Below are positions 18,747 to 61,111 of a DNA stretch of 64,000 nt, piece after piece. The notes beneath the pieces were generated by a model that ran no database searches, was not told the DNA's origin, and was given only the letters and a program-made list of their open reading frames with translations. The translations under genes were made by a program, and so were the position numbers. How positions within the stretch are numbered: position 1 is the first letter of the stretch; every line of letters starts with the position of its first letter. Location of the stretch: positions 62,001 through 126,000 of the forward strand of contig NZ_JAJGBN010000005.1 of the NCBI RefSeq assembly GCF_020782875.1, written 5' to 3'. This DNA is from Allomuricauda sp. M10. GTDB lineage: Bacteria; Bacteroidota; Bacteroidia; Flavobacteriales; Flavobacteriaceae.

Positions 18747-18821
18747 CGGGGTGTAGCGTAGCCCGGTTATCGCGCCTGCTTTGGGAGCAGGAGGTCGCAG
18801 GTTCGAATCCTGCCACCCCGA
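18747..18821 (+). tRNA. tRNA-Pro (anticodon UGG)
   Basis: The acceptor stem CGGGGTG pairs with CACCCCG; the anticodon stem CCTGC/GCAGG closes the loop TTTGGGA with TGG at 18782-18784; the T arm contains GGTTCGAATCC. It begins 19 nt after tRNA-Ser. Its 3' end is the apparent integration site of the mobile element to the right. Confidence 0.97.
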
Positions 18822-18823
18822 CA
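18798..18823 (+). other. Probable attL: left junction of the integrated element
   Basis: The 3' half of tRNA-Pro directly precedes a tyrosine recombinase gene and about 45 kb of mobile-element content. tRNA 3' ends are the usual target of such integrases, and the target segment is normally repeated at the far end. No second copy was seen in this window, so the other end should lie to the right. Exact core boundaries are inferred. Confidence 0.55.
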
Positions 18824-18956: not shown

Positions 18957-19048
18957 GCCTTTTATTTAAATTGTCCTATCTTTAAAGAGCTTTTGGGCAC
19001 GATTTGACTTTCGATGAACAATTATTGTTTAACCAAAGTCATTTTAAC

Positions 19049-42218: not shown

Positions 42219-42335
42219 AGTTTTCGGTTTGATGACAATATTGCTTAAAACACTTGCTGGTTAATTACTGGTGTAACCTATCTTCCTATACTTTGGTCCT
42301 GCAAGTCTCATCAATCAATTACGGTCATTTTTTTA

Positions 42336-42480
42336 AGCTTGCGGGTAACGGTCTTAGCTATGCTTAGTGCGGGATTTCAAGGCACTTCACTTTCCGCTTA
42401 GCAGTTAGTTTATTTAATGTAATTGATTTCATATTAGCACTCTAGCCCGCATTACGTATAGCCAATGTGGTATGCTGGCT
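42336..42480. repeat. Long imperfect inverted repeat (cassette-site-like) between endonuclease and RloC-like genes
   Basis: Arm TTAGCTATGCTTAGTGCGGG (from about 42354) pairs with AGCCCGCATTACGTATAGCC (from about 42444) at roughly 16 of 20 positions. Flanking outer arms are weaker. The arrangement matches the better-paired copy at 44810-44955, each lying just before a minus-strand defence gene. The rest of the 42219-42484 gap holds no gene. Confidence 0.5.
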
Positions 42481-42484
42481 TTTT

Positions 42485-44797: not shown

Positions 44798-44809
44798 TTG
44801 GTTTTTTCA

Positions 44810-44955
44810 GCTTGCATACAACGGTCTCGTATAACCGTCAGTTACGGGATTGTGGGATGTATTGTTGGTTGGTTTACAATGTTCCGTTATTCCGGAAGGA
44901 TTCGGACGTAGTCGAATCCGCCGTAATTGCGGTTATACATTGTTGTGCATAGTGC
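44810..44955. repeat. Long nested inverted repeat resembling a cassette recombination site
   Basis: The whole 146-nt gap folds on itself. The outer arms are GCTTGCATACAACG and TGTTGTGCATAGTGC; the next pair is CGTATAACCG with CGGTTATAC. Further in are CAGTTACGG with CCGTAATTG (one mismatch) and the hairpin GGATTCG-8 nt-CGAATCC. Size and nesting resemble long integron attC sites, though canonical RYYYAAC/GTTRRRY boxes are only approximated. It exactly fills the gap between two minus-strand genes. Confidence 0.6.
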
Positions 44956-44958
44956 TTT

Positions 44959-45948
44959 TTACCCATACAGATTAAGTTCCAAATTTTCAATTTCATAACC
45001 TAGCTTATAGTGTGTTATGTGATTAAGTTTTGTCCAAAAAGGTGTAAATTCCTGGTTTGAAATGCCACAATTTTTTCCAAAATAGATATTGGTTATTTTA
45101 ATTTGTGGGTTTTCCGTAAAATAGGAAGTCCCAACATCTAATCTTCTGTCAAATTCTGGCTTATCACTTTTTACAAAGGGGGATTCATTGTCAACCCAGA
45201 CCTTAAGTCCAAAATAATCCGTTTCTCTCGGTCTTCCTTTCTCTAGTCTAAATTCTGTATTGCAAAATTTCTCATATGCTTCTGTAGTGTTAAAGGGGAA
45301 ATAGGTTGACAATCTGATTTCTACTTCTCTTGAATAATCGGGTTTTTTATGAAATGCGATTAATTTTCCCAAATCGATATAAGTACTTGCATTGGGATAT
45401 TTTTCGTGAAATGTTTTTAATTCCTTTTTCATTTCTAAAAGGTTTTTCGGAATTTCATAAAACACCTCTGAAAGCATAAAATTATTCCATTCGTTAGGAT
45501 CATTTACAATTTCAAATTCAATTGCTACACCTTGATAGTTTTTTCCATATTCTTTCCAAAGGTTCTCATTTGCTAATTCTGATGCTTTGCAAAACGACAA
45601 TGTGTATAAGTATTTTTTTGAATAATCGATTTGATTTTTGTCTATATTCAATTTTTCTGCTGCATACGCAAATTCATCTGAATCTGATGAGTTATGCAAA
45701 TTATAAAGTCTTATTTCTCGATAGTTTATTATGGACATTAAGTTTTGAACAGAAGTCCAATGAATAAATTTTTTGTTTCCGCTGAAGTAATACTGACTTT
45801 CAGAAAATCTATCGTTTTTATTCGACAAACGAGCATTAAATGACATTTCACTATACCCATTACCGACTATCATTCTGTTGGGGATATATTTATGAAGAAT
45901 TGACATAAATTCATCACTTATTTTGTCCAAATACTCTTCTTTATTCAT
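44959..45948 (-). CDS. DUF2971-domain protein
   Basis: A 329-residue soluble protein. The conserved DUF2971 pattern is visible: FIHWTSVQNLMSI, SFCKASELANENLWKEYGKNYQGVAIEFEI, then YSREVEIRLS. Members are found in defence islands, but no activity is established. Both gene ends are marked by inverted copies of TTGTGCATA(G/A)TGC (44943-44955 and 45968-45980), so the gene looks like a single-gene cassette. AT-rich like its neighbours. Confidence 0.75.
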   Translation of the reverse strand: MNKEEYLDKISDEFMSILHKYIPNRMIVGNGYSEMSFNARLSNKNDRFSESQYYFSGNKKFIHWTSVQNLMSIINYREIRLYNLHNSSDSDEFAYAAEKLNIDKNQIDYSKKYLYTLSFCKASELANENLWKEYGKNYQGVAIEFEIVNDPNEWNNFMLSEVFYEIPKNLLEMKKELKTFHEKYPNASTYIDLGKLIAFHKKPDYSREVEIRLSTYFPFNTTEAYEKFCNTEFRLEKGRPRETDYFGLKVWVDNESPFVKSDKPEFDRRLDVGTSYFTENPQIKITNIYFGKNCGISNQEFTPFWTKLNHITHYKLGYEIENLELNLYG

Positions 45949-45967
45949 TTATTTCTGCGGTTTGTAG

Positions 45968-46014
45968 GCATTATGCACAACTAGCTTATATACTCAACTT
46001 TCTTGTGTATATGC
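45968..46014. repeat. Short inverted repeat upstream of the DUF2971 gene
   Basis: GCATTATGCACAA (45968-45980) pairs with TTGTGTATATGC (46003-46014) over most positions. The left arm is the inverse of the arm closing the 44810-44955 repeat, giving matching ends on both sides of the DUF2971 gene. Confidence 0.5.
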
Positions 46015-46158
46015 CACCAATTTGGTCATGTTATTCACAAGTTCTGCAATTGAGTGCAAAGCATAGCTTTGTTAATATTCAAAAAATCTTTAGGGGGAGT
46101 ATGAGTACTAAATGTAAGAATTTTCTAAAAAATCGGGGAGTACAAAAAGATTTAACCG

Positions 46159-46638
46159 TTATTTTTTATAATACTGGTTGCGATTGTGGCTCTTAATAAC
46201 TTCTAATCTACCTTCGTCAACCAGCCGCCGGAGAATGGCTGAAACATTTGATGAAGATGATACTACACCAAAATCTTCTTTTAATTTAATGACGACTTCA
46301 CTGTTATATCTTGGTTTCTTAAAAAAACCTTGATTTATGGATTCAATTAATCTTGATGTTAATCTTGTTTTTTCCTTTCTTGTTGAAGAAAGGATGAATC
46401 TGGGTTTAAATCCAACATTAAAATCAAGAACATCTTTAGGTTGAATGTTGATTGCAAGACATATTTCAATAAAATAAGACAAAGAAGTTTCTTCCCCAGA
46501 TTCTACATCTGAAATTTTCTTATAAGTAAACCCGGTCATTTCAACAACATCCTCAATTTGGAGTTTTTCTTTCTCCCTTTGCTTTTTTAACCGTTTACCT
46601 ATTGCTTTAAGGGCACTTGTCTTCTTATATCTAGACAT
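46159..46638 (-). CDS. XRE-family transcriptional regulator
   Basis: A 159-residue DNA-binding protein. An N-terminal XRE helix-turn-helix (about 10-65: LKKQREKEKLQIEDVVEMTGFTYKKISDVESGEE) is followed by a winged-helix-like C-terminal part (VVSSSSNVSAILRRLVDEGRLEVI). It heads the minus-strand defence block and is divergent from the RNA gene at 46745, so it may regulate either; no operator was identified. Confidence 0.82.
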   Translation of the reverse strand: MSRYKKTSALKAIGKRLKKQREKEKLQIEDVVEMTGFTYKKISDVESGEETSLSYFIEICLAINIQPKDVLDFNVGFKPRFILSSTRKEKTRLTSRLIESINQGFFKKPRYNSEVVIKLKEDFGVVSSSSNVSAILRRLVDEGRLEVIKSHNRNQYYKK

Positions 46639-47363: not shown

Positions 47364-50300
47364 ATGAAAAAATCAAAATCACGCATGTACAGGGTTTTCC
47401 TGTTCATGTCACTATATGTCTTTTTAATGCCTTTTTTCGCGAACACAATGCAGGCGGGCACAGTCTTGGAACCACCACAAGTCACTGTTTCCGGCACCGT
47501 GACCGATACTTCGGGGAATCCCCTGGCCGGGGTGAACCTTGTGGTGGAATCCAAGAATATTGGAACTATTTCAGAATTAGATGGTTCCTTTTCTATCAAT
47601 GCGGGTCCTACAGATGTGCTTATCTTTTCCATGGTTGGTTTTAAATCCCTTACTGTCCCGATTGAGGGTAGGGAACAAGTGATTGTCCAAATGGAAGAGG
47701 ATGTCACTGTGTTGGGGGAAGTGGTCCTCAATGCGGGTTACTATACCGTCTCGGAGCGGGAGAGGACCGGTTCCATTGAAAGGGTTGAATCCATTGATAT
47801 TGAAAAACAGCCGATTTCCAATCCCTTGGCGGCTCTTCAAGGGCGTGTGGCCGGAGTTGAAATTGAACAGGTTTCCGGATTGCCGGGTTCCAATTTCAAG
47901 ATACAGATCAGGGGTCGGAACAGTATCCGTTCAGGGGCCAATGAACCCCTCTACATCATTGATGGTGTTCCCTATGCCTCCAACACCTTGGGGGAGTCAC
48001 AGGCATCATTGCCCTTACCCGGTGGGGGGATAAGCCCTTTGAACAACATCAATCCTTCCGATATTGAAAGCATCGAAATCCTCAAGGATGCGGATGCCAC
48101 GGCCATCTATGGGTCCCGAGGGGCCAATGGGGTGGTGCTGATCACAACAAAAAAAGGGAATTCTGGAGCCACCAAAATTGAGGTGGGCCTGCAAACAGGC
48201 TTGGGAAGAATTGCCAACAAGGTCGATCTTTTGGATACACCGGGGTATCTGGCAATGAGGAGGGAGGCCTTTGCCAATGATGGCATTGATCCCATCCCTT
48301 TCTACGCCTTTGATGTGAACGGGACCTGGGACATGGACAGGCATACGGATTGGCAAAGGAAATTGTTCGGCAATACCTCCTATCTTACCGATGTCCAAGG
48401 CTCCATTTCGGGGGGAAATGAAACCACGCAGTTCTTGGTCAGTGGCAACTTTCACAGGCAGACCAGTGTCTTTCCCGGGGATTTCAACAATGATAAGATC
48501 GGGGTATTGAGCAATCTGGGCCACAGGTCCGCGAACGATCGATTCTCCATACAGTTGTCCACCACCTTCAGTGCCAACAAGAACCGACTTCCAGGGGACG
48601 GATTGTTGGTATTGGATGCCCTTAACTTGGCTCCCAATGCCCCGGAGCTATATACGGAAGATGGCGTGTTGAACTGGGAGAATTCGACTTGGAGCAATCC
48701 CTTGGCCAAGCTTCATGGCAACTACACCTCGGATGGGAAGACATTGATTTCGAATGCGCGCTTGGAATATCGCTTGGTCGATGGTCTAAGGGCCAGTGCA
48801 TCCCTGGGCTATACGGAAAACCATCTTCGTGAGTTGACAACCGTTCCTTCCACGATCTATGACCCTGCCTATGGGATAGGGCCGGAGGCTTCCTATGCCG
48901 TGCACAATACAGGGGAAAGGACTTCCTATATCATGGAGCCACAACTTCACTATGACCGTGATTTTGGTGTGCTACGATTGACCACATTGGTCGGACTAAC
49001 CTTTCAGGGGCAAACAACGCAAAGACGTTCCCAATTTGCCTTTGGGTTCACCAACAATGGCTTGATGGACAATCTATCGGCGGCCTCCAGTCAATTCCCC
49101 ATAGCGGATGTGACCGAGGAATATCGGTATCAGGCTCTTTATGGACGGGTGAACCTGGCGGTGAAGGATCGCTACTTTTTGAATTTCACCGGGCGGCGTG
49201 ATGGTTCCAGTCGGTTTGGGACCGATAAGCGCTTTGCCAATTTTGGTGCCATCGGGGCAGCCTATGTTTTTTCAAGGGAAGCGTTAATCCGACAAGGGTT
49301 TCCAATGCTGAGCTTTGGAAAGCTTAGGGGGAGTTATGGTACCTCCGGCAGTGATCAAATAGGGGACTACCAATACCTGGATACCTACTCCTTTGGTACA
49401 CAACAATACCAAAATACCATTGGGCTGTACCCCACACGATTGTTCAACCCGAACTTCAGTTGGGAGGAAAACAAGAAATTGGAAGTTGCCCTGGAACTCG
49501 GATTTTTTGATGACCGGATATTTTTGAGCGGTACTTATTATAGGAACCGCTCCACCAACCAATTGGTGGGGATACCCCTTCCGGCGACCACGGGATTTTC
49601 CTCGGTGAATGCCAATCTGAACGCGACGGTGGAGAATACGGGATGGGAGTTCGAACTGAAGACGGTCAACATCAACGGAAAGAATTTTTCTTGGTCCACC
49701 GGGCTGAACCTTACCGTTCCCCGGAACCGATTGGTTTCATTTCCCGATCTGGAAGGTTCCACCTATGCCAATCAATTGGTGATAGGCCAACCGTTGAACA
49801 TTTCCAAGGTATATCGGTCCAATGGTGTCAATCCGGGGACAGGGTTGTATGAATTCGAGGACTTCAATGGTGATGGGGTCATATCAAGCCCGGAGGACCG
49901 ACAAATGGTAATGGACCTGAACCCATCCTTCTATGGAGGCCTTACCAATACGGTCACTATCGGGAAATTCAAATGGGATATGCTCTTTCAATTCACGAAA
50001 CAACAGGGTAGTGGGTATTGGACCCCGGGCAATATCATTGTGGGTGGTTTGGCCAATCAGCCAACGTCTGTATTGCAACGTTGGCAGCAGGAAGGGGATT
50101 TGGTGCCTTTCCAACGTTTTTCCACAGGGGCATCCCAAGAGGCAGCCCAAGCTTTCCGGCAATATACACAGAGCGATGTCTCCATTACCGATGCTTCCTA
50201 TATCCGATTGAAGACACTCTCCCTGTCGTATCAGCTTAGGGAAAAAAAGCACCACGGATTTGGCTGCGAGCTATACCTCAGGGGACAGAACCTGTTGACC

Positions 50301-50396
50301 CTTACAGGATATGATGGTCTGGATCCGGAGACACTGAGCAATCAGGCCGTTCCACCATTGAGGGTGGTGACCTTGGGCACAAGACTAACTTTTTAA
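47364..50396 (+). CDS. SusC/RagA-family TonB-linked outer-membrane transporter
   Basis: A 1010-residue barrel transporter with a signal peptide (about 1-33), a carboxypeptidase-D-like domain (VTVSGTVTDTSGNPLAGVNLVV ... FSMVGFKSL, about 40-125) and the SusC plug signature (PLAALQGRVAGVEIEQVSG, IRGRNSIRSGANEPLYIIDGVPY, SIEILKDADATAIYGSRGANGVVLITTKKG). It works with the SusD lipoprotein encoded 10 nt downstream to import large oligomers. A metalloprotease third gene, and no glycan-degrading genes, suggests peptides as substrate (RagAB-like); that is inference. Confidence 0.92.
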   Translation: MKKSKSRMYRVFLFMSLYVFLMPFFANTMQAGTVLEPPQVTVSGTVTDTSGNPLAGVNLVVESKNIGTISELDGSFSINAGPTDVLIFSMVGFKSLTVPIEGREQVIVQMEEDVTVLGEVVLNAGYYTVSERERTGSIERVESIDIEKQPISNPLAALQGRVAGVEIEQVSGLPGSNFKIQIRGRNSIRSGANEPLYIIDGVPYASNTLGESQASLPLPGGGISPLNNINPSDIESIEILKDADATAIYGSRGANGVVLITTKKGNSGATKIEVGLQTGLGRIANKVDLLDTPGYLAMRREAFANDGIDPIPFYAFDVNGTWDMDRHTDWQRKLFGNTSYLTDVQGSISGGNETTQFLVSGNFHRQTSVFPGDFNNDKIGVLSNLGHRSANDRFSIQLSTTFSANKNRLPGDGLLVLDALNLAPNAPELYTEDGVLNWENSTWSNPLAKLHGNYTSDGKTLISNARLEYRLVDGLRASASLGYTENHLRELTTVPSTIYDPAYGIGPEASYAVHNTGERTSYIMEPQLHYDRDFGVLRLTTLVGLTFQGQTTQRRSQFAFGFTNNGLMDNLSAASSQFPIADVTEEYRYQALYGRVNLAVKDRYFLNFTGRRDGSSRFGTDKRFANFGAIGAAYVFSREALIRQGFPMLSFGKLRGSYGTSGSDQIGDYQYLDTYSFGTQQYQNTIGLYPTRLFNPNFSWEENKKLEVALELGFFDDRIFLSGTYYRNRSTNQLVGIPLPATTGFSSVNANLNATVENTGWEFELKTVNINGKNFSWSTGLNLTVPRNRLVSFPDLEGSTYANQLVIGQPLNISKVYRSNGVNPGTGLYEFEDFNGDGVISSPEDRQMVMDLNPSFYGGLTNTVTIGKFKWDMLFQFTKQQGSGYWTPGNIIVGGLANQPTSVLQRWQQEGDLVPFQRFSTGASQEAAQAFRQYTQSDVSITDASYIRLKTLSLSYQLREKKHHGFGCELYLRGQNLLTLTGYDGLDPETLSNQAVPPLRVVTLGTRLTF

Positions 50397-50406
50397 ACAA
50401 AACAAG

Positions 50407-51804
50407 ATGAATACAAGAAATATATTGACTTGGTTGCCAAAACATATCGTTGGCCTTATGGGTATGATCCTTCTGACCCTTTCCTGTGAGGACTATTTGG
50501 AAGTGGATCCCCCAAAGAACCAGTTGACCGGTGAGGTGGTCTTTGAGAATGCCGCAACTGTGGATGCCGCTTTTGCACACATTTATGCAGAACTCAGGGA
50601 AAATGGTTTTACAACCGGGGGTACACAAGGACTGTCCTACCTAATGGGGCATTATTCGGATGAATTGGAGCTTTACAGTTCCTCCCTTCCGGCTGTGCTC
50701 AATTATACCAATAATACCGTGCTGCCCTCGGACAACAGTGTCAAGAACCTTTGGGATACTGGTTATGGACTTGTCTATGCGGCCAATGCGCTACTGGAGG
50801 GCGTTTCAAGCTCCGGTTCCCTGACGGAAGGCGAGAAAGGGCGATTTCTCGGTGAAGCCTATTTTATAAGGGCCTTCATCCACTTCCATTTGGTGAACCT
50901 CTTTGGGGAGATTCCCTATATAATGACCACGGACTATGACGAAAACAAGGATGTTGGTAGACTGGAATTGGCAATGGTCTACCAAAACATTGAGGACGAT
51001 CTTCTGCTGGCAAAGGAGCTGCTTGCATTATCAGCAACCGATTTCGAAAGGTTTCGTCCGGATTATTGGACCGCATCCGCCTTGTTGGCCCGGGTATACC
51101 TGTACCAAGAAAATTGGCAATTGGCGATTGATGAGGCCTCGGCTATCCTAGGTGATAGCGCGTATGCACTCAATACTGATATGGATAGGGTGTTCCTAAA
51201 GGATAGCCCGGAGACCCTTTGGCAACTGGGACCCGGCCTTCCGGGGAACAACACCAAGGAAGCGTTCACCTTTGTGATCGTGAACGGACCGCCTCCCAAT
51301 TCGGCATTGACCCAGTCCCTGATAAACAGTTTTGAGGAAGGCGACGCGCGATTGGAGCAATGGGTGGGGTCGGTCACGGATGGATCGGAAACTTGGTATT
51401 TCCCGTACAAATACAGTGAATATGTGCCGACGGCATCCACCCAGGAATGTTCCATCATCTTTCGATTGGTGGAACAGTATCTGATTTTGGCGGAAGCCAA
51501 TGCCCAATTGGGAAATCTTGGTACTGCCCTGGAATTTTTGAACACGGTTCGCGGCAGGGCCACCTTGCCTTTTCTCGACAACTTGGACCAGGCTTCGCTA
51601 TTGCAAGCCGTTCAAGCGGAACGAAGGGTTGAGTTTTTTTCCGAACAGGGCCATCGGTTCTTTGATCTCAAACGCACCGGTAGGGCCGATGCTGTATTGG
51701 CGCCTATCAAACCGGGGTGGGAGAGTACGGACCGATTGCTGCCCATCCCGGAATCGGAACTGCTGTTGAACCCCAATCTATTGCCGCAGAATGAAGGGTA
51801 TTGA
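50407..51804 (+). CDS. SusD/RagB-family nutrient-binding lipoprotein
   Basis: A 465-residue surface lipoprotein with a lipobox ending LTLSC (Cys27) followed by EDYLEVDPPKN, typical of SusD starts. The helical TPR-like part (LGEAYFIRAFIHFHLVNLFGEIPYI) and the C-terminal motif ERRVEFFSEQGHRFFDLKRTG are intact. It caps the SusC barrel encoded just upstream. Confidence 0.93.
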   Translation: MNTRNILTWLPKHIVGLMGMILLTLSCEDYLEVDPPKNQLTGEVVFENAATVDAAFAHIYAELRENGFTTGGTQGLSYLMGHYSDELELYSSSLPAVLNYTNNTVLPSDNSVKNLWDTGYGLVYAANALLEGVSSSGSLTEGEKGRFLGEAYFIRAFIHFHLVNLFGEIPYIMTTDYDENKDVGRLELAMVYQNIEDDLLLAKELLALSATDFERFRPDYWTASALLARVYLYQENWQLAIDEASAILGDSAYALNTDMDRVFLKDSPETLWQLGPGLPGNNTKEAFTFVIVNGPPPNSALTQSLINSFEEGDARLEQWVGSVTDGSETWYFPYKYSEYVPTASTQECSIIFRLVEQYLILAEANAQLGNLGTALEFLNTVRGRATLPFLDNLDQASLLQAVQAERRVEFFSEQGHRFFDLKRTGRADAVLAPIKPGWESTDRLLPIPESELLLNPNLLPQNEGY

Positions 51805-51832
51805 GGTGCATATAGGTCTATTGAAAATATAC

Positions 51833-54094
51833 ATGAAGCATCGATTTTTGTTTTCATGCATTGTTTGGTTAGCGGTCTGTCCCCTCTGGGGGCAGGCCAA
51901 TTTTGGCATCAAGGGCCATTTGGAAAACGAACGCCTTCTGTTGGAACTGGATTCCATCATATGGGATGTCCCGGTACTGTTCGTACGCCATGGCAAAGGC
52001 CAACACCAGGTGGTCTGGTCCAGGGAAGGGAACCATGTCCTTTTGACACTGGACAGAGTACGTTCGGCATTGGGATTTTACCTTCCCATTTATGACAATT
52101 ATGTCATAGAATCCCATATCCTGGGGCGTTTTCCCATCCTAAAGGAACGAAGCCACGGGGGTTCTGTGTTTATCGATGCCACGGAACTGTTTTTACAGAC
52201 CCCGATAAAATGGGGGTTGGAGGGCCCTGAGACCGTGCATATCGACCAGTCGTACATAACGGATGTGTCCTATTTGGACAAGGAGACCATAATCCGGACC
52301 AAACGGACTACTGCGTATCGCAATTCCAGAAGGACCAAGGAGGTGTACTTCAGTTTCTTTGCGTTGCCAAATCCTATGGTGCCACGATTGTTTGACCATA
52401 GGATGGCCTTTACCTACGAAGACCAATACGATATCATCAATGAACAGGTTAAAACGGAGATCGGCAGCATTTCACGCTGGCGCTTGGAAAAAAAGGACAA
52501 AGGAGCGGTTATCAGCGACCCCATCAAGCCCATTGTCCTTTATCTCGATCCCAAGACCCCCGATAAATGGAAGCCCTATATCAAGGCCGGAGTACTGGAG
52601 TGGTTGCCCGCATTTGAGAAGGCAGGTTTTAGCAATGCCATTGAAGTCAGGGAATTACCGCGAGGCATTGGTGATCATATTGAAAACAGCGTCAATTATT
52701 CCATGATCCGATGGGCGAAGTATGTGGATGTAAGGGGAAGCCAAATACGGGGAGGGTCCTCGGTGAGGAAGATCGTTGATAAACGTACCGGGGAAATCTT
52801 AAAGGGGGATATCCTTTTGGCCAATCCTTTCCCAAGCCTTACCGATGATTATATCGTGCGCTGTGCCCCGTTGGACCCAAGAGCGCAGCAATATCCCCTG
52901 CCGGATGATCTTAAAGGCGAATTGTTGCAGTATGTAACGGCACATGAAATGGGCCATATCCTGGGCATCCGGGATGCGAATTTTGGGGAGTTTGCCTATC
53001 CGTTGGAGCGCATTCGGGATGCCGAGTGGTTGGAAACCATGGGACATACCCCGAGCGTGATGAGCTATTGCAGGCATAACCATGTGGCCCAACCGGAGGA
53101 TGGCATACCGGCCCATCTTTTGATCCAAAAGGTGGGACCCATGGATGCGTTCCAGATACAATGGGGGTACGGTCAGATTGCAGGGGTGGAAAGTCCGGAA
53201 GTCGAAAGGCCCTATTTGGACACCCTTGTGGGCCAACAGGACAGTCTGCCTTGGTTGCGTTATAACCTTGGAACCTTTGAAACCCTTGGTCCCGGTAGTG
53301 CGAATGAAGTAGTGGGAAGTGATGATCCCATAAAAAGTACGGTGCTGGGCCAAAAAAATCTTCAAAGGGTATTGGAGCTGTTGCCGACCCTGAACAATAA
53401 TCAAAGGGATGATGAACTTTTGGAACGGTTATATGACCGGAGCCTGGAATTATGGTACCATCAAATGCTTCATATCCTATCCATGATCGGGGGATACGAA
53501 ATCCAATACAAGACCGGGGCACAGAACGGTCTTGTTTACGAACCCATTCCAATGGAGGACCAGATACAGGCCATGGACTTTCTGTTGCAAAATGTCTTGG
53601 ACACCCCTGATTGGCTGTCCCATCCATCGTTCTTGTCCAGGATTCGTTACACTACAAATGCGGATAAATTGTTTGAATATCGGGTAAAACTGTTGACCGA
53701 TATGATAAATCCATTACGTATCAGACGATTGGAACAAACGGAACTTTCCGGCAGCCATTCGGGATTGATCCAACAATTGGTCCTGATCCTGGGGTCACGG
53801 CTTTTCGGTGACCTGGAAGAAATGGACGGAGGAAAACGAGATCTTCAAATGACCTATCTGTCCCTGTTGTCCAAGGTCTTTCCAACGGATAACTTGAATG
53901 CCAGTGGTAACCTTGGTATCGATGGCTATGGATACGGAAGTTATGTGAGGAGCATATTTTATGTGCAGGCCCAAGGCATTCAAAAACTGTTGAAAAAGGG
54001 TCTTGGAAAGAAAATCGATTCGGTGGACAAAGCGCATTTGGAACTGTGCCTTTTAAAGGTAAACGGTATGCTGAGGGTGAACCGTGGGAATTGA
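51833..54094 (+). CDS. Zinc-dependent metalloprotease (DUF5117/DUF4953-type)
   Basis: A 753-residue exported protein. The signal peptide begins at MKHRFLFSCIVWLAVCPLWGQ, which sets the start at 51833 rather than the in-frame ATG at 51791 inside susD. The zinc motif is AHEMGHILGIRDAN (HExxHxxGxxD-like, near residue 380), followed by a met-turn-like PSVMSY. DUF5117-like segments flank it. It is the third gene of the susC-susD operon and probably trims peptides or proteins for import. Confidence 0.87.
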   Translation: MKHRFLFSCIVWLAVCPLWGQANFGIKGHLENERLLLELDSIIWDVPVLFVRHGKGQHQVVWSREGNHVLLTLDRVRSALGFYLPIYDNYVIESHILGRFPILKERSHGGSVFIDATELFLQTPIKWGLEGPETVHIDQSYITDVSYLDKETIIRTKRTTAYRNSRRTKEVYFSFFALPNPMVPRLFDHRMAFTYEDQYDIINEQVKTEIGSISRWRLEKKDKGAVISDPIKPIVLYLDPKTPDKWKPYIKAGVLEWLPAFEKAGFSNAIEVRELPRGIGDHIENSVNYSMIRWAKYVDVRGSQIRGGSSVRKIVDKRTGEILKGDILLANPFPSLTDDYIVRCAPLDPRAQQYPLPDDLKGELLQYVTAHEMGHILGIRDANFGEFAYPLERIRDAEWLETMGHTPSVMSYCRHNHVAQPEDGIPAHLLIQKVGPMDAFQIQWGYGQIAGVESPEVERPYLDTLVGQQDSLPWLRYNLGTFETLGPGSANEVVGSDDPIKSTVLGQKNLQRVLELLPTLNNNQRDDELLERLYDRSLELWYHQMLHILSMIGGYEIQYKTGAQNGLVYEPIPMEDQIQAMDFLLQNVLDTPDWLSHPSFLSRIRYTTNADKLFEYRVKLLTDMINPLRIRRLEQTELSGSHSGLIQQLVLILGSRLFGDLEEMDGGKRDLQMTYLSLLSKVFPTDNLNASGNLGIDGYGYGSYVRSIFYVQAQGIQKLLKKGLGKKIDSVDKAHLELCLLKVNGMLRVNRGN

Positions 54095-54132: not shown

Positions 54133-54411
54133 TTAATTGGGTGTGACCCTCTTCAAAGGAATGCTACAGACGGTTGCCCCCGGAATTCGGTATACCTGCT
54201 TTCCTGCATAGGTACACATATAATCCCCATCCAAGGAACAATCCAAGTTGTTCACCTCTTGACATTTGGGTGACTGGGTGGCATCGAACACATACCCTTG
54301 GGTAATGGCTGCGTCATCAGCTGCTGCGTCAACAGCAGTAAAGGCACTTGTGGCAATGGCAAATACAATGGCCATGACCGGAATAATGAATTTGATCATT
54401 TTTGTTTTCAT
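54133..54411 (-). CDS. DUF6520-type small exported four-cysteine protein
   Basis: A 92-residue protein with a signal peptide (about 1-29) and a short mature part holding four cysteines (C50, C58, C66, C82) and ending SIPLKRVTPN. The pattern fits DUF6520 proteins of flavobacteria, whose function is unknown. It is the last gene of an operon with a MauE/DoxX membrane protein, whose relatives help form disulfides, so two disulfide bonds in this peptide are plausible. A signal, toxin or structural peptide are all possible. Confidence 0.72.
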   Translation of the reverse strand: MKTKMIKFIIPVMAIVFAIATSAFTAVDAAADDAAITQGYVFDATQSPKCQEVNNLDCSLDGDYMCTYAGKQVYRIPGATVCSIPLKRVTPN

Positions 54412-54438: not shown

Positions 54439-55584
54439 CTACTCTGTTGTACGGGTTTTCGATCTTCTCCCGCTACTGGCCAGTAGGTAATCTTTGATGT
54501 TTAGGTTGTTTGTCAATATGGAGCCATCAAAATAGGGTTCACGGGTCTCATATACCGAGATCTGTGTGTCCAACAATGCCACCAGATAACCCTCGTGGAC
54601 GGCAAATTCCCTTACTTTGTGTTTTTTGATGTCGTAGATGTAAAAACTATATTCATAGGATCCCTTGAGATAGTCGTATGCATCGACGATCGTGGCCTCG
54701 TCCAACATTTCCTCACTTTCATTTTTGCCCAGTCGGTCCGAAACTATCAGCAGTAGATTCCGGGACATACAAGTTGCCTTATTGATGAACAATGGTAGTG
54801 ATTTCATGGAGACATCGCCCTTTAGGTTCGGTTCAGCAAGTGAAATTTGGGCGGTTTCCACCGTATCTATGGTTCGGTGCCGATGTAGGCCCTTCATTTC
54901 AAGGTTCATCGTCATGAATTGGTTCCGGTAATAATACACATAGCCCAGCTTTGAAGTTTCCTTGGACAGCACCATTGTCCCATCCACATCGAAAATGCCG
55001 TCAATCTGCGCTTCCAATAGGGTAGTGTCCAATGTTACCTGAAAGCCGGTTGTTTTTTTGATGATTCCCAAAGTTGATTTTTGCGTCTTTGAACTAATGG
55101 TCCGGATGAACATTAGATGGCTGTCGACAGGAACTGCCCTATCGAAAAAAGCTGCTCCTTCCATCCATGCATAGGCCTTCCATTCTCCTAATCTGCCACG
55201 AAGGATAAAGGGCATGGTCCCGTCCATGACAAAAAAATAGGGAGGGAGTACCGAAGTATGTATGGAACGGTAACGTAACCCGTTGCCCGATGGTGTTAGG
55301 CGGATGGGCAAGGTGTCCCTTGTCCTCATGTTGACCTGTAACAAATGCCATGGGGCCGAACGATTGCCCAAATAAAGAAGGTCCCGGTCAAACCCGGCAA
55401 TGTAATAGGAGTTATGGATCACATCCAAATCGTATAGTTTCGTGATGGGGTGTGGTGGATATCTGCGGATGAAGGCATTGTTGCGGTGCACCTCTTGTTC
55501 GGATGAAAGGAACAGGATGACCATTAGACCAATGCTTAGTCCCATGGTTCCGAAGATTTTGATGTAACTGTTGTTCGCTATCAT
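54439..55584 (-). CDS. Membrane-anchored protein of unknown function, probable beta-propeller
   Basis: A 381-residue protein with one N-terminal membrane helix (about 8-27) and an extracytoplasmic beta-rich part with repeated strand-turn patterns (YIAGFDRDLLYLGN, YFFVMDGTMPFIL, IDGIFDVDGTMVLS, FYIYDIKKHKVREFAVHEGYLVALLDTQISVYE). I do not recognise a named family. The start at 55584 overlaps the MauE stop, while the frame open to 55683 would run through the MauE gene. It sits between the MauE-like and peptide genes, so a scaffold or receptor role for the peptide is possible. Confidence 0.72.
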   Translation of the reverse strand: MIANNSYIKIFGTMGLSIGLMVILFLSSEQEVHRNNAFIRRYPPHPITKLYDLDVIHNSYYIAGFDRDLLYLGNRSAPWHLLQVNMRTRDTLPIRLTPSGNGLRYRSIHTSVLPPYFFVMDGTMPFILRGRLGEWKAYAWMEGAAFFDRAVPVDSHLMFIRTISSKTQKSTLGIIKKTTGFQVTLDTTLLEAQIDGIFDVDGTMVLSKETSKLGYVYYYRNQFMTMNLEMKGLHRHRTIDTVETAQISLAEPNLKGDVSMKSLPLFINKATCMSRNLLLIVSDRLGKNESEEMLDEATIVDAYDYLKGSYEYSFYIYDIKKHKVREFAVHEGYLVALLDTQISVYETREPYFDGSILTNNLNIKDYLLASSGRRSKTRTTE

Positions 55585-56027
55585 GTTGGTATTGCTTTTG
55601 GTGGGAGTTTGGGGGTGGAGAGAAGAATGGCCAAGGTCACAAGGACGATAAAGAAAGCGTTGAAGATGATATGTTCGGTCCACCCCATGGCTTCCAGTAC
55701 ACCTCCACAGGTACAGGGGATGTAATCACTGAAGTTGAGGACCAGTACAATATAGGTAGTGAACATGGTCATCAGTCCCAAAGTGCCATAAAGGGCGATC
55801 AGACGGAACCTATCCGCCAGTATCAGAAATGCGAGTATATATTCCGTCAAGGGAACCAACCAAACCACCCATTCCGCGTAAGCGGTCAAAATGGGGGATT
55901 GGCCCAGTTGTGTTTTAAAGTTTTGGAAATCCCATAGTTTGCTTGTGGCTGCATAAATGAACAATATGGAACAGAGTATACTGACCGCATAGGGAATCCA
56001 GACCTGTAAATGTTTTAAACCTTTCAT
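55581..56027 (-). CDS. MauE/DoxX-family redox-associated membrane protein
   Basis: A 148-residue protein with four membrane helices (about 10-28, 50-68, 78-97, 117-137). The CTC pair in YIPCTCGGVLEAMGW is characteristic of the MauE-like group, whose founding member is needed for disulfide formation in methylamine dehydrogenase. It is the first gene of a three-gene operon and lies about 45 nt downstream of a pair of 21-bp-spaced direct repeats. Confidence 0.82.
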   Translation of the reverse strand: MKGLKHLQVWIPYAVSILCSILFIYAATSKLWDFQNFKTQLGQSPILTAYAEWVVWLVPLTEYILAFLILADRFRLIALYGTLGLMTMFTTYIVLVLNFSDYIPCTCGGVLEAMGWTEHIIFNAFFIVLVTLAILLSTPKLPPKAIPT

Positions 56028-56068
56028 ATCCTTTGGATTGATATGACAAAGTTCGGGAGTCGGATTTA

Positions 56069-56105
56069 CTTGAAACGGAGCATTCCTTGACGCAAACGGA
56101 GTAAT
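56069..56105. promoter_or_regulatory. Direct-repeat operator A upstream of the MauE operon
   Basis: The core AAACGGAG occurs at 56073-56080 and 56094-56101, start to start 21 bp, i.e. two helical turns. CTTGA lies just before the second core. The same pair with the same spacing is at 57581/57602. Direct repeats at this spacing are the usual binding arrangement of AraC-family activators, and such a gene lies between the two sites. Binding is inferred. Confidence 0.6.
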
Positions 56106-56123
56106 TTGCCCATTTTGAGGGTG

Positions 56124-57050
56124 TTACCCCCTCAAATCACTGGGTGATTTACCATACTTGTCCCTAAATGCCCTGGAGAAATGGGCCGCACTCTTGAAGC
56201 CAGTCAAATGCGCGATTTCTTTCAAGGATAAGTTGCTATGCTGGATCAAGGTCTTCGTCTTTCTTAAACGTTCATGGGTTAGGAACCGAAATATGGTAGT
56301 GCCATAGAGTTGTTTGAACCCATACTTCAATTTGTATTCGTTGGTGCCCATTTGTAGGGCAAGATCTTTTAGCAAAGGTAGATTCTTGTCCAAGTTGTTG
56401 ATGATCATATCATGGACATCCCGGATCATTTCAATATCCTCAGGTGTCAGCGTGACTTTGGGCTCTTTTATGCCCTTGGTCACTTTGAGCGTCTTTTTGG
56501 GCAACTCCGTCCCAAAGGGCTCTCCCTTGGAGAAGAAAACCGTGTCCAATAGTATTTTCTGCCCACTCCCGTCCAAAGATCGGAATACTGATATATGGCA
56601 GTCCTTACCTAACAATAGCCCGTCTTTGGTTATAAACTCCAAAAACTGGACAGTTTCAGAACGTTCCCTTTTCAAATGTTTGACCATTTTCTTCGCCCAT
56701 ACTTTTTGGGAACCCTCGGTCATAAAATCGGTAATTGGTTTTCCAATGATTTCTTTTGGCAATGTGGACAATAGCGAGCAGGTACTGTTGGTGACCATTT
56801 CTATAGTACCATAGGTATCCATCAGAAAGGAAAGTTGGATGATGCATTGTGGGGTGTTGTGTGCGTTGGCAAACCCTTGATGGATAAAGGAGGCCCTGAT
56901 CTCCTCGTTGACCATATTGAGCATCACGACCAAGGATGCGACATTGTCATTTTTATGGGTGGGTTCCAAACTGTAGAAGAAATTGCCACGGGCCATTTCC
57001 AGTAACATCCGTTGGATGCGCTTTACCCTAAAATCGTCATTGTTCGGCAT
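56124..57050 (-). CDS. PAS-domain AraC-family transcriptional regulator
   Basis: A 308-residue regulator. A PAS-like sensor region (about 68-180: FLMDTYGTIEMVTNSTCSLL, PKEIIGKPITDFM) precedes a two-part AraC helix-turn-helix (about 205-308), with the second helix pair LSLKEIAHLTGFKSAAHFSRAFRDKYGKSPSDLR very clear. It probably binds the AAACGGAG direct repeats on either side. It follows the STAS-like gene by 57 nt on the same strand. Confidence 0.88.
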   Translation of the reverse strand: MPNNDDFRVKRIQRMLLEMARGNFFYSLEPTHKNDNVASLVVMLNMVNEEIRASFIHQGFANAHNTPQCIIQLSFLMDTYGTIEMVTNSTCSLLSTLPKEIIGKPITDFMTEGSQKVWAKKMVKHLKRERSETVQFLEFITKDGLLLGKDCHISVFRSLDGSGQKILLDTVFFSKGEPFGTELPKKTLKVTKGIKEPKVTLTPEDIEMIRDVHDMIINNLDKNLPLLKDLALQMGTNEYKLKYGFKQLYGTTIFRFLTHERLRKTKTLIQHSNLSLKEIAHLTGFKSAAHFSRAFRDKYGKSPSDLRG

Positions 57051-57107
57051 GGTTGTCAGGTTTAGTAGTTAATAACTGGAGTCTCTTTATTTGTATAGAA
57101 GCATAGG

Positions 57108-57482
57108 TTATTTTATGGATTTTAAAAAGGCCAAGGCCTCTGATTTTTTGACAAAGGATCGGGTGGGGACCGACTGAGCATGGGTCCATAGATAAATGGA
57201 GCTGATCACATCGGTTACTGGGGGATCGATCAAGAAGGCCAAGGCCTTAACCCATTGTGAACCCTCCAAGGCCAAATAGTCCCGGGCCGGTTTATTGACC
57301 CTTCTTACTTCACGAATATCACAGAGAACGGGCATTTCACGGCCATTTTGGAGCATCATTCGGTCCCTGACGATAAGTTGCGCTGCCTTTAGGTCGATAC
57401 AATGGTCTTTTTTGTATATGATGTGCAGCAACTCATCGGTCATCAAATAAATGGCGTATTTGTTTTCATGTGATTTTTTCAT
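57108..57482 (-). CDS. STAS/SEC14-like small protein
   Basis: A 124-residue soluble protein: KYAIYLMTDELLHIIYKK, then DLKAAQLIVRDRMML, MPVLCDIREVRRVNKPARDYLA, and the end FVKKSEALAFLKSIK. This strand-helix alternation is that of small STAS-like proteins of flavobacteria and resembles the gene at 7171-7596. It is co-directional with and just upstream of the AraC regulator gene, so it may act as its partner or modulator. No biochemical role known. Confidence 0.68.
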   Translation of the reverse strand: MKKSHENKYAIYLMTDELLHIIYKKDHCIDLKAAQLIVRDRMMLQNGREMPVLCDIREVRRVNKPARDYLALEGSQWVKALAFLIDPPVTDVISSIYLWTHAQSVPTRSFVKKSEALAFLKSIK

Positions 57483-57572
57483 GTGGTGAAAACTGGTAAA
57501 ACCTTGAATTTACAAAATTAATGGAACTCGATTCGGTCATTAGATTCATTACCCTTAAATAAAGGTATTTGA

Positions 57573-57610
57573 CTTGACTTAAACGGAATAATGCTTGATT
57601 GAAACGGAGT
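57573..57610. promoter_or_regulatory. Direct-repeat operator B between the regulator operon and the synthase gene
   Basis: CTTGACTTAAACGGAA and CTTGATTGAAACGGAG are repeated 21 bp apart (cores at 57581-57588 and 57602-57609). They lie 91-130 nt upstream of the STAS-araC genes on one side and 70-108 nt upstream of the synthase gene on the other. Identical spacing to operator A suggests one regulator. Relative to the minus-strand genes the motif points the same way at both loci. Confidence 0.6.
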
Positions 57611-57679
57611 ATATCATTATTGGATAGCATCTAATCTTACAATTGCCATTACTTTTTAGTACAATTTAAATCAAACAAA

Positions 57680-60085
57680 ATGGCAAAGATCAAGCACCAC
57701 AACTTTTTGAACACCGTACATGAGGTATTTACCGATGCCAAGAACGCAGGGGTACTGCACCTCTATGCAGGGGGAGCATTCTTTTCGGGCAGGACCATTG
57801 AGGTAGAGGGGAAGGAACTGTACCACTTTGGTACTACGGGTTACTTGGGATTGGAACAGGATCCCAGATTAAAAAAGGCCGCCAAAGAGGCCATTGATAG
57901 ATATGGGACACAATTTCCCTTATCCAAATCCTATATCTCCAATCCGTTGTATGAGGAACTGGAAAACTCGATTTCCGAAATGTACGGCTATCCCATTGTC
58001 ATTACAAAAAACAGTACCCTTGGGCATTTAGGGGTCATCCCCAGTGCAGTGGACGATGAAGACGTAATCATTTTGGACCACCAAGTCCATTGGAGTGTAC
58101 AGAATGCGGCCAAAATGCTAAAGACACGGAGTGTGCCCATCGAGATGATCCGACACAACCAATTGGAAATATTGGAGGACAAGATTAAAAAATACCAACA
58201 TTCCAAAGGTAGGATTTGGTACATGGCCGATGGCATTTATTCCATGTATGGGGACTATGCCCCAGTCAAAGAACTGATGGGGTTGGCAAAGAAATATCCA
58301 CAGTTACATTTTTATTTTGATGACGTACATGGTATGAGTTGGGTGGGAAGGAATGGTACCGGATATGTGTTGGACCAGTTGGGAGAATTGCCCGAGAATG
58401 TATTGCTGTTCGGGACATTGAGCAAGACCTTCGGGGCCAGTGGAGCTGTTCTGGCCTGTTCCAATGCTTCGATGTACGATAAGATCAAGACCTTTGGTGG
58501 ACCCTTGACCTTCTCCGCCCAATTGGAACCGGCTTCGGTTGCCGCAGCCATGGCCTCAGCACAAATCCATCTATCCCAGGAGATTTATGGGTTACAACAA
58601 GAATTGAGGGAACGCATAAATTATTTCAATGATTGCCTTTCGATAACGGATCTTCCCTTGATCGATAGAAATGAATCACCGGTGTTCTATATCGGGACCG
58701 GTATGCCCAAAACCGGATACAATTTTGTGAACCGTTTGATGGTGGAGGGCTTCTTTGTCAATCTCGGTATCTTTCCTGCGGTACCTGTAAAGAATACAGG
58801 GGTAAGGATTACGATTTCAAGGCATAACCAAAAAGAGGAAATCAAAGCATTGGTGGGAGCCATGGAATATCATTTTCCAAAGGCATTGGAAGATACCCAG
58901 ACCGATGCCCAAAGGGTATTCCACGCCTTTAAAATGGAACCAAAGACCCTAAGTGGACCGAAAGTATCCTCTGAGCTAAACATTGAAGTATTCGATACCA
59001 TTGACCAAGTTGAAAAGGAAGAATGGAACCAAAGTTTAGGTAGGCAAGGGGTCTATGATTGGGATGGCCTGAAGTTTTTGGAGGAAGTGTTTCATGGCAA
59101 TCCTAGGAAAGAACATAATTGGTTGTTTCGATATGTGGTCATAAAGGATACTGATGGGATACCCGTATTGATGACTTTTGTGACCCTTTCCCTTTGGAAG
59201 GATGATATGTTGGCACAAGCACAAATTTCTGCTGCCATTGAAGAGGAAAGGAAAACCGATCCCTACCATTTGTCATCCACAGTCCTGTCCCTAGGCTGTT
59301 TGTTCACGGAAGGAGATCACCTGTATTGGAATGCATCACATGCCTTGGGTATGGAGGCAAGGAACAAGCTATTGGAAACCTTGGAAAAACTGGAACTCCA
59401 GTCAGGGTCCAAGATGACCGTGTTACGGGATTTTAGTGAACAAACGTCATGGAATGAACCGCTTTACGGTCAGGGATTTTTAAGGGTACAGATGCCCAAT
59501 TCCTGTTCTGTTGACTTAAGCGAGGTGGATTCCATGGAAGATTATTTGCAAAGATTGTCCTCCAGAAACAGAAGACATTTCCGAAAGGATGTCCAGCCGT
59601 ATCTCGATAGGGCAAAGACCATAGTTCTTCCTAAGCTATCCAAATCTGAACTTGATCAGGTCAAATCCTTATTTGGGGAAGTACAGTCAAGAAATTTGGG
59701 ACTCAATACCTTTTCCTTTCCGGACTCCCTGTTTGAAAAGATGAACGAAAACCATTTGTGGGAGTTTATTGTCCTTTGTTCATTGGACGAACCTGAAAAA
59801 ATAGTGGGTGTAATGTTCTGCTATACCAACTTGAAGCAAGTATATGTCCCTGCTTTTGTAGGTATGGATTATGATGGTCTGAAAGAGTTTGCCATTTATC
59901 GCCAGTTGCTCTACCGGACCATTGACCGGGCTATTGGATTGGGCATTCCCAAAATCGATTTTGGGTTGACCGCAGCCTTTGAAAAACGGAAACTTGGTGC
60001 AACGGTAGAGAAAAAATATGCCTATCTCCAGACCAATGACAATTTCATTTTGGAATTGCTCGGAATCATGGAAGGCCAGCATTAA
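57680..60085 (+). CDS. Alpha-oxoamine synthase fused to a GNAT/FemAB-like acyltransferase
   Basis: An 801-residue fusion. The N-terminal part (about 1-400) is a fold-type I PLP enzyme of the BioF/KBL/CqsA group: FGTTGYLGLEQ, FYFDDVHGMSW with D214/D215/H217, and PLP lysine K249 in LFGTLSKTFGASGA. The C-terminal part (about 430-801) resembles the Acetyltransf_6/FemAB type (YLQRLSSRNRRHFRKD, KIDFGLTAAFEKRKLGA). Together they could condense an acyl-CoA with an amino acid and then N-acylate the product. CqsA enzymes make alpha-aminoketone signals; a signal product here is inference. Followed by rteC after 12 nt. Confidence 0.82.
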   Translation: MAKIKHHNFLNTVHEVFTDAKNAGVLHLYAGGAFFSGRTIEVEGKELYHFGTTGYLGLEQDPRLKKAAKEAIDRYGTQFPLSKSYISNPLYEELENSISEMYGYPIVITKNSTLGHLGVIPSAVDDEDVIILDHQVHWSVQNAAKMLKTRSVPIEMIRHNQLEILEDKIKKYQHSKGRIWYMADGIYSMYGDYAPVKELMGLAKKYPQLHFYFDDVHGMSWVGRNGTGYVLDQLGELPENVLLFGTLSKTFGASGAVLACSNASMYDKIKTFGGPLTFSAQLEPASVAAAMASAQIHLSQEIYGLQQELRERINYFNDCLSITDLPLIDRNESPVFYIGTGMPKTGYNFVNRLMVEGFFVNLGIFPAVPVKNTGVRITISRHNQKEEIKALVGAMEYHFPKALEDTQTDAQRVFHAFKMEPKTLSGPKVSSELNIEVFDTIDQVEKEEWNQSLGRQGVYDWDGLKFLEEVFHGNPRKEHNWLFRYVVIKDTDGIPVLMTFVTLSLWKDDMLAQAQISAAIEEERKTDPYHLSSTVLSLGCLFTEGDHLYWNASHALGMEARNKLLETLEKLELQSGSKMTVLRDFSEQTSWNEPLYGQGFLRVQMPNSCSVDLSEVDSMEDYLQRLSSRNRRHFRKDVQPYLDRAKTIVLPKLSKSELDQVKSLFGEVQSRNLGLNTFSFPDSLFEKMNENHLWEFIVLCSLDEPEKIVGVMFCYTNLKQVYVPAFVGMDYDGLKEFAIYRQLLYRTIDRAIGLGIPKIDFGLTAAFEKRKLGATVEKKYAYLQTNDNFILELLGIMEGQH

Positions 60086-60097
60086 TGGGAAATCGTC

Positions 60098-60937
60098 ATG
60101 AAATACCAAAAGCTGCTATCGGAATTTGAAGGCCAATTGGATGCCTTGGAAAGCGGGAACGGGGATATCCTTTTCAAAGCGGAAAAGGGTATCGTTCTTG
60201 TGGAGAAAAGTATCCGTAAACTCCAAAAACAGATTACCGGCAAGACCTTCGAGACCCAAGCGGACGAAATCTACTTCTTCAAGCACGTCAAGCCCCAAAT
60301 CTTTAGTAAGCTGATCTATTATGTCAAATTGTTCAATATCGAGAGCAAGCGGCCAAGGGGAATCAATGCAGCGCAGATCAAATACCTTCAGCACCAGATC
60401 GATAAGTTCCAGACCTTTTTCAATGACAATCTGGAATTCTATAACTATTACCGTCGTGGGGCAATGTCCCTGGATGAACAATATTTTGTCAGGGGGAACC
60501 GAGACCTTAGGCTACCCCTTGAATCCTTCCACTTTCTGATCGATGACCAGTTCTCCACCTGTCAGGATGGGACCGTGGCAACGATCATGGCCTATGACAT
60601 GCTCATCGTATACCTGAGAAAGGAGGTGGATGACCTACAAAACAATTTAGAACCCCAAAAGACCATGACTATGGAAAAACCTTCAAAACTGTTCTGGACC
60701 GGCAACAAGACCGATCTGATCGAACTTTTATATGCACTCCAATCCAGCAAATGCATCAATAGTGGTACCACGGACATCAAAGAGTTGGCCTCGCATTTTG
60801 AACATTTTTACAATGTGGACCTTGGTAACTACTACCATACCTTTATTGATATCAGGTCCCGAAAGGTAAGTAGGACCCGGTTCTTGGACAAACTTATTGA
60901 AATGCTCCAACAGCGCATGGAATCCCTGGATGAATGA
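60098..60937 (+). CDS. rteC: RteC-family regulatory protein
   Basis: A 279-residue helical protein. Segments KHVKPQIFSKLIYYVKLFNIESKRPRG, DNLEFYNYYRRGAMSLDEQYFVRG and WTGNKTDLIELLYALQSS are characteristic of RteC, the DNA-binding protein that activates excision genes of CTnDOT in Bacteroides. It is placed directly after the synthase gene and upstream of the palindromes and the Xis-like gene, matching a role in excision control. Confidence 0.85.
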   Translation: MKYQKLLSEFEGQLDALESGNGDILFKAEKGIVLVEKSIRKLQKQITGKTFETQADEIYFFKHVKPQIFSKLIYYVKLFNIESKRPRGINAAQIKYLQHQIDKFQTFFNDNLEFYNYYRRGAMSLDEQYFVRGNRDLRLPLESFHFLIDDQFSTCQDGTVATIMAYDMLIVYLRKEVDDLQNNLEPQKTMTMEKPSKLFWTGNKTDLIELLYALQSSKCINSGTTDIKELASHFEHFYNVDLGNYYHTFIDIRSRKVSRTRFLDKLIEMLQQRMESLDE

Positions 60938-60947
60938 TCCTTTGTTT

Positions 60948-60973
60948 TTCCCAAGTTGGTACCAACTTGGGAA
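60948..60973. repeat. 26-bp perfect palindrome, copy 1
   Basis: A perfectly self-complementary 26-mer centred on GGTACC, 10 nt after the rteC stop. An identical 26-mer recurs at 61086-61111. It could terminate rteC transcription or serve as a protein-binding site. Confidence 0.75.
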
Positions 60974-61085: not shown

Positions 61086-61111
61086 TTCCCAAGTTGGTAC
61101 CAACTTGGGAA
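61086..61111. repeat. 26-bp perfect palindrome, copy 2
   Basis: Identical to the copy at 60948-60973, start-to-start distance 138 bp, and 107 nt before the Xis-like gene. Perfect conservation of two copies in a non-coding gap argues for a selected DNA site such as an operator for RteC or the HTH protein. That assignment is inference. Confidence 0.75.

Follow-up and report, generated by a model that had tools for sequence, protein, structure and literature searches.

The stretch of DNA analysed here (the window, 64,000 nucleotides) carries a PAS-AraC transcription regulator whose operon lies between two pairs of direct repeats, called here site A and site B. This regulator, borne on an integrating conjugative element (ICE) of marine bacteria, very probably binds both sites and would thereby control its own operon, the divergent rteC gene (here preceded by a synthase gene) and a cargo operon. 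We infer binding, the dimer, activation and the RteC step described below from conservation, spacing, co-variation and exchange points. The original prediction had united the AraC, MauE and synthase-rteC operons in one regulon, a reading supported by the putative sites, which border all three at near-constant distances; the synthase-rteC limb is the weakest, since a good −7 box was not recognised on that side. The locus comprises:

54133..54411, minus strand, DUF6520 small protein of the MauE operon (Pfam DUF6520, 8.7e-12)
54439..55587, minus strand, MauE-operon protein without a Pfam or NCBIfam match (start codon chosen by us)
55581..56027, minus strand, MauE-like membrane protein, the first cargo gene past site A (Pfam MauE, 5.7e-31)
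56124..57050, minus strand, PAS-AraC transcription regulator of 308 aa (PAS about 70–174; HTH_18 230–307)
57108..57482, minus strand, DUF7793 protein, the first gene of the AraC operon (Pfam DUF7793, 1.2e-40)
57680..60085, plus strand, BioF/serine-palmitoyltransferase-like PLP synthase (about 1–395), divergent from site B
60098..60937, plus strand, RteC, 12 bp past the synthase (Pfam RteC, 9.8e-83)

Four AAACGGAR cores mark the two sites, at 56073, 56094, 57581 and 57602, all on the plus strand. The sequence, orientation and 21-bp period that the cores of both loci had been said to share were confirmed at these positions, and CTTGA-N3 precedes three of the four, as claimed; the core at 56073 has TTTACTTG in its place. 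Read on the minus strand, which is that of MauE, AraC and DUF7793, core and CTTGA form a single 18-bp unit with the boxes TCCGTTT and TCAAG. The units stand in tandem with a period of 21, and their consensus is about TA(C/A)TCC(G/T/C)TTT..G(T/A)(C/T)AA(G/C). TCC and A16 are unchanged in 152/152 units of the 38 close loci described below, and T8 in 149.

The pattern AAACGGAR-N13-AAACGGAR matches the 3,930,527-bp genome exactly twice, at sites A and B; its backwards control has no match in the same genome, and no AAACGGAR pair occurs in 60 Markov-generated 64-kb windows. Allowing at most one mismatch, a looser 21-bp pattern finds five places genome-wide (two for its backwards control), namely sites A and B, one by the AraC-family gene L073 and two others. 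A weight-matrix scan of the window and 34 kb of downstream flank revealed no third pair, except one reusing B1 as its second unit. The place by L073 (C20:262859–262893 of the same genome) is a TCCCTTT pair with 21-bp spacing, located between the stop codon of a 284-aa AraC-family gene and the next operon. HTH1 of the encoded protein resembles that of the linked AraC, and this chromosomal regulator possibly shares a box-1 code with the linked PAS-AraC. The units and promoter boxes are:

56047..56054, minus strand, −7-like box of the MauE operon, GAACTTTG, the same or a one-base variant in 38/38 close loci
56065..56082, minus strand, site A unit A2, TGCTCCGTTTCAAGTAAA, its TCC 25 bp upstream of the −7 box in 38/38 close loci
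56086..56103, minus strand, site A unit A1, TACTCCGTTTGCGTCAAG, its TCC 46 bp upstream of the −7 box in 38/38 close loci
57513..57520, minus strand, −7 box of DUF7793-AraC, TAATTTTG, 88/67/46 bp downstream of B1/B2/B3
57552..57569, minus strand, site B unit B3, degenerate, AATACCTTTATTTAAGGG, in 21-bp register with B1 and B2
57573..57590, minus strand, site B unit B2, TATTCCGTTTAAGTCAAG
57594..57611, minus strand, site B unit B1, TACTCCGTTTCAATCAAG

TAnnTTTG and the −33 TTTG are described as Bacteroidota promoter motifs in PMC2483708. From the TCC of B1, B2 and B3 (or the B3 equivalent) to TAnnTTT(G/A), the distances are 88/67/46 bp in 26 loci, 89/68/47 in 9 and 86/65/44 in 1; the DUF7793-AraC promoter lacks a match to the box pattern in 2/38 close loci. 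The spacing between unit and −7 box is 25+21n, exact at site A and within two bases at site B, so that, seen from its promoter, each pair faces roughly the same side of the helix. The third site-B unit is near-perfect in the relative L042. On the synthase side of site B, no TAnnTTTG box was recognised, and B1 lies at a constant distance from the synthase ATG in 36/38 close loci and one base further away in 2.

We propose that one PAS-AraC dimer would occupy each operator, with one 18-bp unit per monomer and the units two helical turns apart, HTH1 reading the nearly constant TCCNTTT box and HTH2 the variable TCAAG or ATAAC box. The dimer at site A would lie just upstream of the MauE −7 box, A2 falling close to −33; from there it would most likely activate the cargo operon. 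The site B pair, placed 42 bp further upstream than at A and on the same helix face, would control the DUF7793-AraC operon and, on its other side, rteC, here together with the synthase. RteC in turn may be the controller of excision and transfer, by analogy with CTnDOT.

A somewhat unlikely alternative deserves weighing, in which AraC binds both sites and the chief role of B is repression, autorepression or A–B looping over 1.5 kb, A alone being activating; transfer would then be held off until a signal arrives. The strong B units at 67 and 88 bp, off −33, with a degenerate proximal B3, would suit such a role, and AraC at araBAD switches between two pairs, one looped and one activating (PMC4760080). 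However, the helical phase to the −7 box stays at 25+21n, which is what an upstream activator would show.

The regulator is a member of the AraC/XylS family by its HTH_18 match (1.1e-19; 70.9 bits against a cut-off of 33.6) and its HTH_AraC match (48.2 against 26.6), as well as by its tandem two-box units of about 15–18 bp, a geometry compared with that in PMC4514859. Its PAS_9 match (6.1e-5) is below the Pfam cut-off. The AlphaFold2 model has a mean pLDDT of 57.6, with PAS blocks at 65–94, and gives PAS matches by Foldseek. Residues 288–299 are predicted to form the HTH2 recognition helix, and the DNA-binding domain can be aligned with the solved structures of AraC, Rob and SoxS; since the model has low confidence everywhere except in the PAS domain and a part of HTH2, claims about contacts were not built on it. 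The sensor domain of AraC itself is a cupin, whereas the regulator described here combines a PAS sensor with a Bacteroidota −7 box.

According to PMC4514859, an AraC/XylS monomer possesses two HTH motifs, the recognition helices of which insert into two neighbouring major grooves. AraC at araI1-I2, XylS and MtlR occupy consecutive sites, one per monomer, with the promoter downstream (PMC4514859 and PMC4760080); the tandem two-box units upstream of a promoter at sites A and B resemble this direct-repeat arrangement. Unlike in those systems, here two operators flank the regulator operon, on an ICE, and they exist as natural types whose second box varies with HTH2. A likeness to Rob, SoxS and MarA lies in the box spacing, which here is TCCG-N7-CAA or TCCN-N7-TAA: the former equals that of the Rob site GCAC-N7-CAA, and the SoxS site is given as GCAC-N7-TAAA (PMC4514859). 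However, Rob, SoxS and MarA use single sites, in contrast to the tandem pairs at 21 bp. The site-A/site-B arrangement is a variant of the AraC/XylS direct-repeat kind; among the titles and abstract openings listed in searches of open-access literature, none seems to deal with this system.

Conservation was assessed in a close set of 38 loci, one of them the window, whose AraC proteins all differ from one another and have at least 60% identity. A scan of genome contigs gave 31 loci, namely 30 that pass this identity threshold, found in records of Muricauda, Allomuricauda and Flagellimonas plus one of Pareuzebyella (L048), and the weak match L063, which was dropped. Seven further loci completed the set, L004 being omitted as a duplicate protein. 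The best pair per site scores 19.0 to 52.0 bits in the window and the 30 scan loci, where the top-scoring pair per region was accepted at any score. Among the seven added loci and L004, site B is above threshold in all, and site A in all except L138, whose A pair is weaker. Repeats missing from homologous loci had been named as evidence that would speak against the original prediction; both pairs are present in 38/38 close loci, with weak A pairs in L055, L056, L060, L061 and L138. An AraC match at 1e-60 was found in 29/71 genomes of the genus, distant paralogues counted, and at 1e-30 in 39/397 genomes of the family. The AraC relative at L053:8001–8921 has an internal TAA, reflecting either recent decay or an assembly error, and retains both operators intact; that both sites are kept despite the stop was counted against AraC as their reader.

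The distant set consists of L005–L032, from other genera with an AraC 36–49% identical, and L139, with L020 too short for site-B scoring. Its site-B regions exceed 8 bits in 25/28 loci, and its site-A regions score above all 100 mononucleotide shuffles in 23/29. Mean pair scores peak at 21 bp alone: for site B (28 loci) the mean is 24.3 at 21 bp versus at most 1.6 at other spacings between 18 and 30, with shuffles at about −19, and for site A (29 loci) 12.7 versus at most −1.2. A convincing B pair is absent from the scored stretch of L022, L024 and L028, L022 having one further upstream, and a convincing A pair from L017, L020, L024, L028, L031 and L032.

A second AraC class (L140–L149, 10 loci, 33–36% identical) carries GNHFAREF or variants in helix 6 and GAGCC/GATCC as the second box of site A. 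These elements lack a synthase match, and several genomes carry both AraC classes. All shuffles are beaten by 9/10 A regions and 8/10 B regions, at lower scores; the site-B "units" are weak and mixed, and their spacing peak is weak as well (3.4 at 21 bp versus −1.5 at 22).

Naming AraC as the reader of both repeats is supported by co-variation, as the operators follow its DNA-binding domain more closely than neighbouring DNA. Site-B distances correlate with those of AraC HTH2, 1.3 kb away, at r = 0.83, above every other stretch compared: the DUF7793 gene between (0.67), HTH1 (0.58), the DUF7793-side leader (0.51), the AraC N-terminus (0.39) and the synthase-side flank (0.34). In partial Mantel tests, which run liberal on autocorrelated data so that p = 0.001 is not to be taken at face value, site B and HTH2 given DUF7793 gave r = 0.65 (p = 0.001) against 0.02 (p = 0.35) for the reverse; with 23 dereplicated loci the values were 0.47 (p = 0.001) and 0.19 (p = 0.012). 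We therefore place weight on the fact that HTH2 exceeds DUF7793 although the latter lies nearer. Shared ancestry of the groups prevents a mutual-information ranking from singling out helix 6, hence the use of the tree and Mantel tests.

At the level of residues, the 13 close-set proteins with A at 289 (11 AA and 2 PA at 288–289) go with C15 and G18 in B1 and B2 without exception, and the other 25 (18 KT, 4 IP, 2 IT and 1 VP) with T15 in both units. C15 in A1 likewise accompanies 13/13 A289 proteins and also the 4 IP proteins, which have T15 in B. AraC columns 273, 288 and 289 alone split C15 from T15 B1 operators perfectly across the 38 close loci; residues 288–289 are the start of the predicted HTH2 recognition helix. 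A simple residue code for the whole family was nevertheless rejected: alanine at 289 pairs with C15 in 13/13 against 0/25 within the close set, and the rule fails beyond it, where C15 also occurs with P or S at 289 (L010, L012, L015, L018, L019). Independent-pairs tests of A289 with C15 lean toward co-variation and are not significant, counting same, opposite and no difference as 3.8, 0 and 2.2 of 6 pairs for B1 (median p 0.125), 3.5, 0.6 and 2.0 for B2 (median p 0.375), and 2.9, 0.8 and 1.4 of 5 pairs for A1 (median p 0.625).

At site A, scored over 77 loci, E294 coincides with C16 in A1 and A2 in 13/13 cases, which amount to one event because E294 arose once on the tree, and A16 is found in 52/52 non-E loci; 12/77 loci without a scored A unit were omitted, and L139, whose site-A pair is shifted, is among the 52. 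At site B, the E294 loci have C16 in 4/10 (B1) and 6/10 (B2). A single case, L008, has W for R293 and a deviant second box in both B units. On a tree built without HTH2, operator types are interleaved, with several branches poorly supported, so the DNA-reading and sensor ends seem to have separate histories. This co-evolution suggests that PAS-AraC may switch both the transfer regulator and the exchangeable cargo. The loci also offer a natural data set on AraC-family specificity, with a near-constant HTH1 and first box and a second box varying with HTH2, in which natural operators are intact and accompanied by their natural proteins.

The original prediction described this AraC gene as the only one, which holds for the interval between the sites; the genome contains 41 HTH_18 matches. 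With these candidates, and with the L073 gene bearing a 21-bp-spaced TCCCTTT pair and a similar HTH1, another host AraC-family protein might read the sites, alone or in competition. We regard this as quite improbable, as it is the linked AraC whose HTH2 co-varies with the sites among recombining elements, and the locus recurs with its own AraC in other genera of the family. Two or three main-class AraC copies occur in 6/23 genomes, and G442 has two as well. The idea that co-resident copies always differ in operator type, as an incompatibility rule, was rejected, since copies of the same type do co-reside: L046/L051 and L132/L133, each pair within one genome, are all of KT type with near-identical operators, which predicts cross-talk.

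Comparison of relatives also reveals where the locus recombines. Compared in 60-bp steps, the window and L033, whose AraC proteins are 99% identical, match at 88–100% over a stretch that starts within the synthase and takes in site A, and identity drops to 43% directly past the MauE ATG; L034 behaves alike, and the same break is seen in L045/L132, L062/L134 and L035/L062. At the other end, L045, L047 and L132 have the synthase end in common with the window (80–98% per step, first step aside) and share neither its DUF7793-AraC nor its site B. Mapped on the AraC tree of 38 rows, the MauE-module type shows 9 changes, no fewer than expected from shuffled labels (mean 9.7, minimum 6), and the synthase label shows 4 (shuffled: mean 9.2, minimum 6). 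The cargo operon is swapped precisely at its start codon, and the segment from operator through AraC and DUF7793 to operator behaves as one cassette, with the genes on both sides exchanged near their start codons. Such free exchange of cargo behind a kept promoter and operator suggests how elements may gain genes that are already under control. That the repeats are iterons or another structural repeat (for replication, a transfer origin or a recombination hot spot behind the exchange points) is very improbable indeed, for although exchange breakpoints lie near both sites, the cargo-side one falls at a start codon outside the units, the units are near-fixed in phase to the −7 boxes and track HTH2, and two or three units per site are few for iterons.

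Further features of the element and its surroundings in the window are:

18747–18822, tRNA-Pro, next to the integrase
19004–20290, tyrosine integrase
38593–39612, DUF5712 protein, which we take to be the relaxase
39624–41210, coupling protein
47364..54094, plus strand, convergent genes beside the cargo operon, a neighbourhood conserved in relatives
47364–50396, plus strand, TonB-receptor-like gene, named by the look of its sequence
50407–51804, plus strand, SusD (Pfam)
51791–54094, plus strand, Met-zincin (Pfam)

An integrase by a tRNA gene, a putative relaxase, a coupling protein, tra genes (TraG P-loop, TraM and DUF4138 in the downstream flank L150) and RteC, with one match in the genome, make this an RteC-type Bacteroidota ICE. 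In CTnDOT, rteC is switched on by RteB, and its product controls the genes for excision and transfer (PMC1976400). The likeness consists in an RteC-family gene carried by an integrating conjugative element whose tra genes are those of Bacteroidota; the difference is that control there is by the two-component rteA-rteB, whereas here a PAS-AraC operator lies upstream of rteC, or of synthase-rteC. Neither an RteA sensor kinase nor an RteB response regulator was found beside rteC, the upstream genes being the synthase, DUF7793 and AraC. RteC-type ICEs of Flavobacteriaceae gain a candidate master regulator where CTnDOT has RteAB. A histidine-kinase-like protein (HEF_HK, HATPase_c) is encoded away from rteC, in the flank just past the window (L150:20–2698).

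In the second AraC class, rteC is the divergent neighbour of DUF7793 in 10/10 loci, with no synthase match between; at L060:6267–7397 the synthase is cut to a short remnant and rteC is retained beside site B. On both grounds, site B is more constantly partnered by rteC than by the synthase. The synthase scores 77.2 bits against the CqsA-type alpha-hydroxyketone autoinducer synthase model NF005526 (NCBIfam), below its cut-off of 428; its best NCBIfam match is PRK07505 (265.8, cut-off 342), and its second half is FemAB/GNAT-like by weak matches below cut-offs. Since it falls below the autoinducer-synthase cut-off, a signal role is confined to one rather doubtful extension, in which PAS-AraC and an acyl-amino-ketone-type synthase would form a self-sensing ICE switch, the PAS domain sensing the synthase product. 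The synthase would then share an operon with RteC under the control of site B, coupling excision to the density of carriers, and recombination would keep matched regulator-operator types while swapping the cargo behind site A, yielding a plug-in control cassette that exists in natural specificity types.

Two further features of the element were observed. Between the coupling protein and the TonB-receptor-like gene (41370–46638) lie an Mrr-like nuclease, an AAA_13 ATPase, DUF2971 and HTH genes, a probable defence island in the ICE. Between rteC and an HTH_17 gene, a 26-bp perfect palindrome, TTCCCAAGTTGGTACCAACTTGGGAA, occurs in two copies (60948–60973 and 61086–61111, 138 bp apart), a candidate site for RteC or another regulator.
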